DNA of 37,462 bases from an uncultured Acidimicrobiaceae bacterium (GTDB taxonomy: Bacteria > Actinomycetota > Acidimicrobiia > Acidimicrobiales > Ilumatobacteraceae), in NCBI GenBank assembly GCA_903904615.1, contig CAIVDG010000382.1, positions 1 through 37,462 on the forward strand, in the 5' to 3' direction. Position numbers and translations under genes: made by a program. Each line of letters begins with the position of its first letter. Position 1 is the first letter of the stretch. Positions 9,818-9,910 of this stretch are shown here, one piece after another. Below the pieces are notes generated by a model. The model had not been told where the DNA came from. It did not search any database and was given only the letters and a program-made list of their open reading frames with translations.

Positions 9818-9846
9818 AAAAAACCCCCTGCCTGGGCAGAGGGTTT
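9818..9846 (-). terminator. Intrinsic terminator of the leuA attenuator
   Basis: Minus strand AAACCCTCTGCC-CA-GGCAGGGGGTTTTTT: near-perfect stem followed by a T run, located between the leader peptide and leuA. Confidence 0.9.
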
Positions 9847-9847
9847 C

Positions 9848-9873
9848 GACAGCAGCGATATTCGGCTGCTGCC
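9848..9873 (-). promoter_or_regulatory. Leader-RNA hairpin just after the leader peptide stop
   Basis: Minus strand GGCAGCAGC-CGAATATC-GCTGCTGTC, 9-bp stem with one G-U. Confidence 0.8.
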
Positions 9874-9874
9874 G

Positions 9875-9910
9875 TTACATAAGGAGGAGGAGGCTGGAGG
9901 ACAACGTCAT
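9875..9910 (-). CDS. leuA leader peptide MTLSSSLLLLM
   Basis: Minus strand ATG ACG TTG TCC TCC AGC CTC CTC CTC CTT ATG TAA: five Leu codons in 11, four consecutive, directly upstream of hairpin and terminator. Confidence 0.85.
   Translation of the reverse strand: MTLSSSLLLLM

Follow-up and report, generated by a model that had tools for sequence, protein, structure and literature searches.

A putative ribosome-mediated attenuator upstream of leuA and its valine and isoleucine counterparts in an uncultured Acidimicrobiaceae bacterium

The leader region upstream of leuA

The window studied here, the whole 37,462-nt stretch of DNA from an uncultured Acidimicrobiaceae bacterium, carries on its minus strand the gene leuA (8075..9763, ATG at 9763), which encodes a 2-isopropylmalate synthase of 562 aa (NCBIfam TIGR00970, 793 bits against a cut-off of 697) and is the presumed regulated gene. 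Its Shine-Dalgarno sequence, AAAGGA, is readable at 9771..9776. Further upstream on the same strand lies a predicted leader ORF, MTLSSSLLLLM* (9875..9910), with the codons ATG ACG TTG TCC TCC AGC CTC CTC CTC CTT ATG TAA; it starts with the ATG at 9910, and its run of CTC CTC CTC CTT is followed by one codon (ATG) and the stop (TAA, 9877-9875). A -10 box, TAGCCT (9919..9924, minus), is placed 8 nt 5' of the leader ATG, which implies that the transcript is leaderless or nearly so.

A 10-bp hairpin with an 8-nt loop, hereafter hp1 (9847..9874, minus), begins right behind the stop codon and reads CGGCAGCAGC-CGAATATC-GCTGCTGTCG from 9874 to 9847; it is backed by covariation and by the predicted fold. 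Adjoining it with a gap of 0 nt is an intrinsic terminator stem-loop (9821..9846, minus), AAACCCTCTGC-CCAG-GCAGGGGGTTT from 9846 to 9821, with a stem of 11 bp counting A-U pairs, which is recognized from sequence, covariation and fold and runs into a U6 tract read at 9818..9823. The 151-nt leader region folds better than its shuffles (z -2.5), and about 100 nt separate the leader stop from the leuA ribosome-binding site. The original prediction, made from this sequence, had placed a leader ORF, a hairpin, a terminator and leuA in this order, and all of them are present on the minus strand; its geometry holds with one correction, namely that the stems of hairpin and terminator adjoin without an intervening nucleotide.

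No Rfam 15 family matched the window at its gathering score, and relaxing the search to E<=1 at the leuA, ilvB and cimA loci returned a single sub-threshold sRNA match, at the cimA locus. Behind leuA, a small ferredoxin-like frame that also lies beside leuA in several relatives is followed by pyrF (window 7050-8075).

Conservation and geometry of the leaders

A search for leuA succeeded in 60 of 61 genomes, and where the gene had its long form the region upstream was inspected. Forty-four leuA leaders in which one codon separates a Leu-codon run from the stop were found in the host's order, in the same genus and in many other families; they were located from leuA itself, without a covariance model, and have identical run-stop spacing. 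Almost all of the relatives examined have the element in front of leuA, as do many families of the class; the layout is missing from two divergent leuA genes (L042 and L043). A comparison of leuA leaders in relatives had been proposed along with the prediction, and it shows the leader ORF and its Leu codons to be kept. When 34 distinct leaders were aligned, both sides had changed in 12 of 20 base pairs (4.7 +/- 1.2 in shuffles), with a covariation score of 0.403 vs 0.218, and for hp1 both-side changes occur in 8 of 10 pairs.

A wider set of 105 nonredundant leaders was used to describe the geometry. Codons -4 to -2 are L, I or V in 98-99% of these leaders, a proportion inflated by selection as the segmentation required L/I/V codons and the covariance model (R1, described below) encodes spacing; codon -1 is one of the three in 13%. 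Of the 105 leaders, 49 have a TANNNT motif ending 4-11 nt 5' of the start codon, with a peak at 6-8 nt, as against 3 of 202 control start codons, and a Shine-Dalgarno sequence before the leader start is absent in 98/104. Given this placement and the missing Shine-Dalgarno sequence, the leader mRNA is probably leaderless, as Leu leaders in Streptomyces reportedly are (PMC8079986). The leader stop is TAG in 87 of the 105 (83%) vs 24 of 99 nearby long ORFs (24%), a preference that is partly explained by the pairing of its G into hp1, whose first pair falls within the stop codon in 78/105. The arms of hp1 are mostly 9-11 nt long, and the spacer between hp1 and terminator is at most 6 nt (0-6) in 103/105.

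Sister leaders and distribution

Three such leaders are found in the host genome: that of leuA has LLLL, that of ilvB VVVV(L), and that of cimA, the citramalate synthase gene, IIII(R). The ilvB leader (G000:C69, L204) reads MKTGTAQKSLVVVVL* and has its Val run in SLVVVVL*, and the cimA leader (G000:C276, L213) ends in ...AAVIIIIR*; each is followed by a stop-anchored hairpin and a terminator, with a spacer of 6 nt, the upper limit of the range above. These two were located by inspecting the upstream regions of the genes, as the Leu-trained model finds confidently only the leuA copy in the host genome. Within the host's family, an Ile run separated from the stop by one codon is present at 24 of 30 cimA loci, with the hairpin and terminator behind it, and at most of the other loci cimA appears close behind another coding frame. 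The Ile-run leader at cimA is consistent with a threonine-independent route serving isoleucine synthesis, and would mark cimA as a gene of isoleucine synthesis. Leaders of the leuA-type layout with His runs (none among all 8 matches) or Trp runs (none among 12 checked of 49 matches) were not seen in the host genome.

The covariance model R1, trained on Leu leaders and applied with a match threshold of E <= 0.01, matches 108 of 198 genomes of the host's class and 51 of 398 in a sample of the phylum, counts that are limited by sampling and filters; the weak matches L118, L180, L193, L195, L198 and L200 look like chance or unrelated hits. Downstream of the matches lie leuA, leuS, ilvB, leuB and cimA, with gene identities checked. 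At codon positions -5 to -2, Leu makes up 83% at leuA and Ile 83% at cimA, leuB leaders have Ile/Val, and ilvB leaders have a mixture of Leu, Val and Ile; the Leu-trained model also finds Ile leaders because the hairpins are common to both. Five leuB leaders (L112, L115, L116, L117 and L119) have Ile and Val codons and no Leu (IVVIP*, IIVIP*), which suggests that leuB may be sensed there via isoleucine and valine, perhaps because leuB also acts in the citramalate route.

The fit of codon run to gene function across these five genes, together with the fixed run-stop-hairpin geometry, makes it hardly credible that the region is a partial terminator working constitutively, without regulation, next to a short ORF that is there by accident. 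Very improbable, too, is an action on translation like that of the LEU element, whether through the Leu run occluding the ribosome-binding site of leuA or through a protein bound to the RNA. Leu leaders before leuA in other Actinobacteria have been read in this way (PMC1262725), but a covarying terminator with a U tract stands between leader and leuA here, the ribosome-binding site is far beyond the leader stop, and versions with Val and Ile occur. Taken together, the leaders at leuA, ilvB and cimA look like a modular amino-acid sensor.

Alternative pairings and ribosome-masked folds

In classical attenuation, an arm of hp1, its loop or the codon run would pair with an arm of the terminator, and the original prediction had raised the possibility of such an antiterminator between the first hairpin arm and the 5' arm of the terminator (GGCAG with CTGCC). 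This complementarity is indeed present in the window, pairing of the Leu run with the G-rich arm of the terminator is feasible in 91-92% of cells of the first alignment, and there is precedent in ilvBNC of Corynebacterium glutamicum and ilvB-II of Corynebacterium (PMC11857589, PMC10272879). We compared duplex energies within and between sequences in a permutation test on the 105 leaders; kin remain in this set, and their relatedness would somewhat mask a within-sequence signal, yet both true helices still stand out, being the only selected duplexes (hp1, z -28; terminator, z -27). None of the alternative pairings was better within than between sequences in the 105 leaders, neither R1:R3, the proposed pairing of arm 1 with arm 3 (z +0.9), nor R1:R4 (+0.4), R2:R3 (+1.8), R2:R4 (+2.8), run:R4 (+0.4) or loop:R4 (+0.9).

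Two particular candidates were also rejected as general mechanisms. The helix between the Leu run and the 3' arm of the terminator, the only alternative helix kept in the first alignment, reaches a permutation z of +0.4, cannot be formed by Ile leaders and would be of no use to them. A base-overlap competition as in C. glutamicum would need hp1 to extend into the base of the terminator, and this extension captures a mean of 0.11 nt, equal to the permuted data; hp1 and terminator have no nucleotides in common in 94/105 leaders. We therefore regard the classical scheme as improbable for these leaders, given that no alternative pairing exceeds the between-sequence level.

Folding of the 105 leaders under ribosome masks, a thermodynamic calculation that does not capture co-transcriptional kinetics, gave hp1 a probability of 0.98 as long as the edge of the ribosome was at or below +3, and of 0.03 at +12. 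By standard footprints, +12 is the edge of a ribosome terminating at the stop codon. The terminator had a probability of 0.94-0.97 at all ribosome positions tested; the zero values for L022, L027 and L028 in alignment-based masking come from column misalignment and are not biology. The search for mutually exclusive structures that had been suggested thus came out negative, as the terminator stays folded under every mask and is thermodynamically compatible with hp1, so that the two coexist. With the base of hp1 lying in the stop codon, these modelled folds indicate that the position of the ribosome would govern hp1 and not the terminator.

Proposed mechanism

Ribosome-mediated attenuation in general is, in our view, highly probable at leuA on the comparative evidence: the notion of a leucine attenuator stands with the conserved leader and Leu run and the gene-matched Val and Ile sisters, and the alternative pairing proposed for it falls away. 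We further consider it probable that the leuA leader is a transcription attenuator, one of three built on a common plan, which works via the abutting hp1. The comparison of genomes bears out the predicted leader, the run, hp1, the terminator, their fixed geometry, the match of run and gene and the missing base-pair exchange, and from these we infer the leucine response and its direction.

The leader mRNA, probably leaderless, would be translated while it is being made. When leucyl-tRNA is charged, the ribosome would reach the stop codon and its footprint would cover the 5' arm of hp1, so that hp1 comes apart and the terminator can act. Under leucine shortage, the ribosome would stall within the run of Leu codons, at 2-5 codons from the stop, and hp1 would stay folded; if starvation is to raise expression, the intact hairpin must then oppose termination. 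An intact 10-bp hp1, 0-6 nt from the base of the terminator, may get in the way of the terminator stem as it closes in the RNA exit channel, and the polymerase would read on into leuA. As hp1 and terminator share no bases, an abutting duplex that is not accommodated during zipping of the terminator offers the simplest route, although steric hindrance of the terminator by hp1, taken on its own, is a step we propose tentatively. A hairpin adjoining the terminator is the antiterminator in ilvBNC of C. glutamicum, as backed by mutations (PMC11857589). On the other side, mutations in the leuA leader peptide of Streptomyces coelicolor, cited in PMC1262725, had some effect, though not the one that classical attenuation would give. 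The 6-nt spacers at ilvB and cimA of the host genome and the predicted coexistence of hp1 and terminator also count against the proposal.

Alternatively, hp1 might make the polymerase pause and so keep it in step with the ribosome, like the trp 1:2 hairpin, with another step, such as an elongation factor or a ribosome-polymerase contact, preventing termination under starvation. Most leaders have a pyrimidine-G (YG) step 10-13 nt past hp1, which is the distance of hairpin-stabilised pauses, and hp1 would be melted by a ribosome at the stop according to the masked folds; leader-hairpin pausing has also been proposed for ilvBNC of C. glutamicum (PMC11857589). A near-constant distance of about 10 nt from hp1 to YG would fit a pause as well, although this figure is in part an artefact of the way the base of the terminator was set. 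However, the YG step also belongs to the conserved terminator stem. The full G-10 Y-1 G+1 consensus occurs in at most 10% of leaders at any single distance, and a pause provides no antitermination step, so that we consider this role of hp1 unlikely.

Relation to known systems

Leader peptides for Leu, Ile/Val and Trp are established in Actinobacteria (PMC1262725, PMC10272879, PMC11857589, PMC8079986). With attenuators of the trp/his/leu type the leaders described here share a predicted leader ORF rich in the regulated amino acid, a hairpin before an intrinsic terminator that lies between leader and gene, and a cognate biosynthetic gene; they differ in that no mutually exclusive antiterminator was detected and that hp1 is anchored at the stop and abuts the terminator. 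The Corynebacterium ilvBNC and ilvB-II systems likewise have a branched-chain leader peptide and a hairpin beside an intrinsic terminator (PMC11857589, PMC10272879), and ilvBNC of C. glutamicum in addition a leaderless leader and adjacent hairpin bases. In these systems, however, a GCC trinucleotide is common to antiterminator and terminator, or the loop of P1 pairs with the terminator, and the ORF spans P1, whereas here the leader ORF ends before hp1, no base nucleotides are shared in those 94 leaders and no such loop pairing is selected (loop:R4), which sets the present leaders apart from both.

The LEU element of actinobacterial leuA also has a Leu-run leader peptide 5' of the gene, but it is without a terminator and its Leu run pairs with the leuA Shine-Dalgarno sequence (PMC1262725); the leader in the window has a terminator and thus falls outside this group. 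The leuS leader LeuL2 of Streptomyces lividans resembles it, by its description, in that the Leu leader is leaderless and has a hairpin and a U stretch behind it (PMC8079986), but its ORF end past the run is longer (LLLSEPR). In the open-access literature we found no report of the leuA-type element, its class-wide spread, a cimA attenuator or attenuators in Acidimicrobiia.

The present leaders might represent a class of attenuator without base-pair exchange, in which hp1 antiterminates purely by abutting, untranslated leaders are read through, and one plan serves three branched-chain pathways including the Ile-read cimA; we rate this as possible, though less likely than not. Should nearness to the terminator be all that hp1 needs, attenuation could be had from two independent hairpins and a ribosome, a simple, modular and easily tested design. 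In a group of Actinomycetota that has been little studied, the leaders would also amount to a coherent, readable control of the synthesis of leucine, valine and isoleucine.

Elsewhere in the phylum, in a different lineage, four leaders with Leu/Val/Ile codons (L183, L189, L192 and L197) precede a small protein of ~96 aa. Its L183 copy has no NCBIfam match, and in the loci read (L183, L192 and L197) ilvB comes next.
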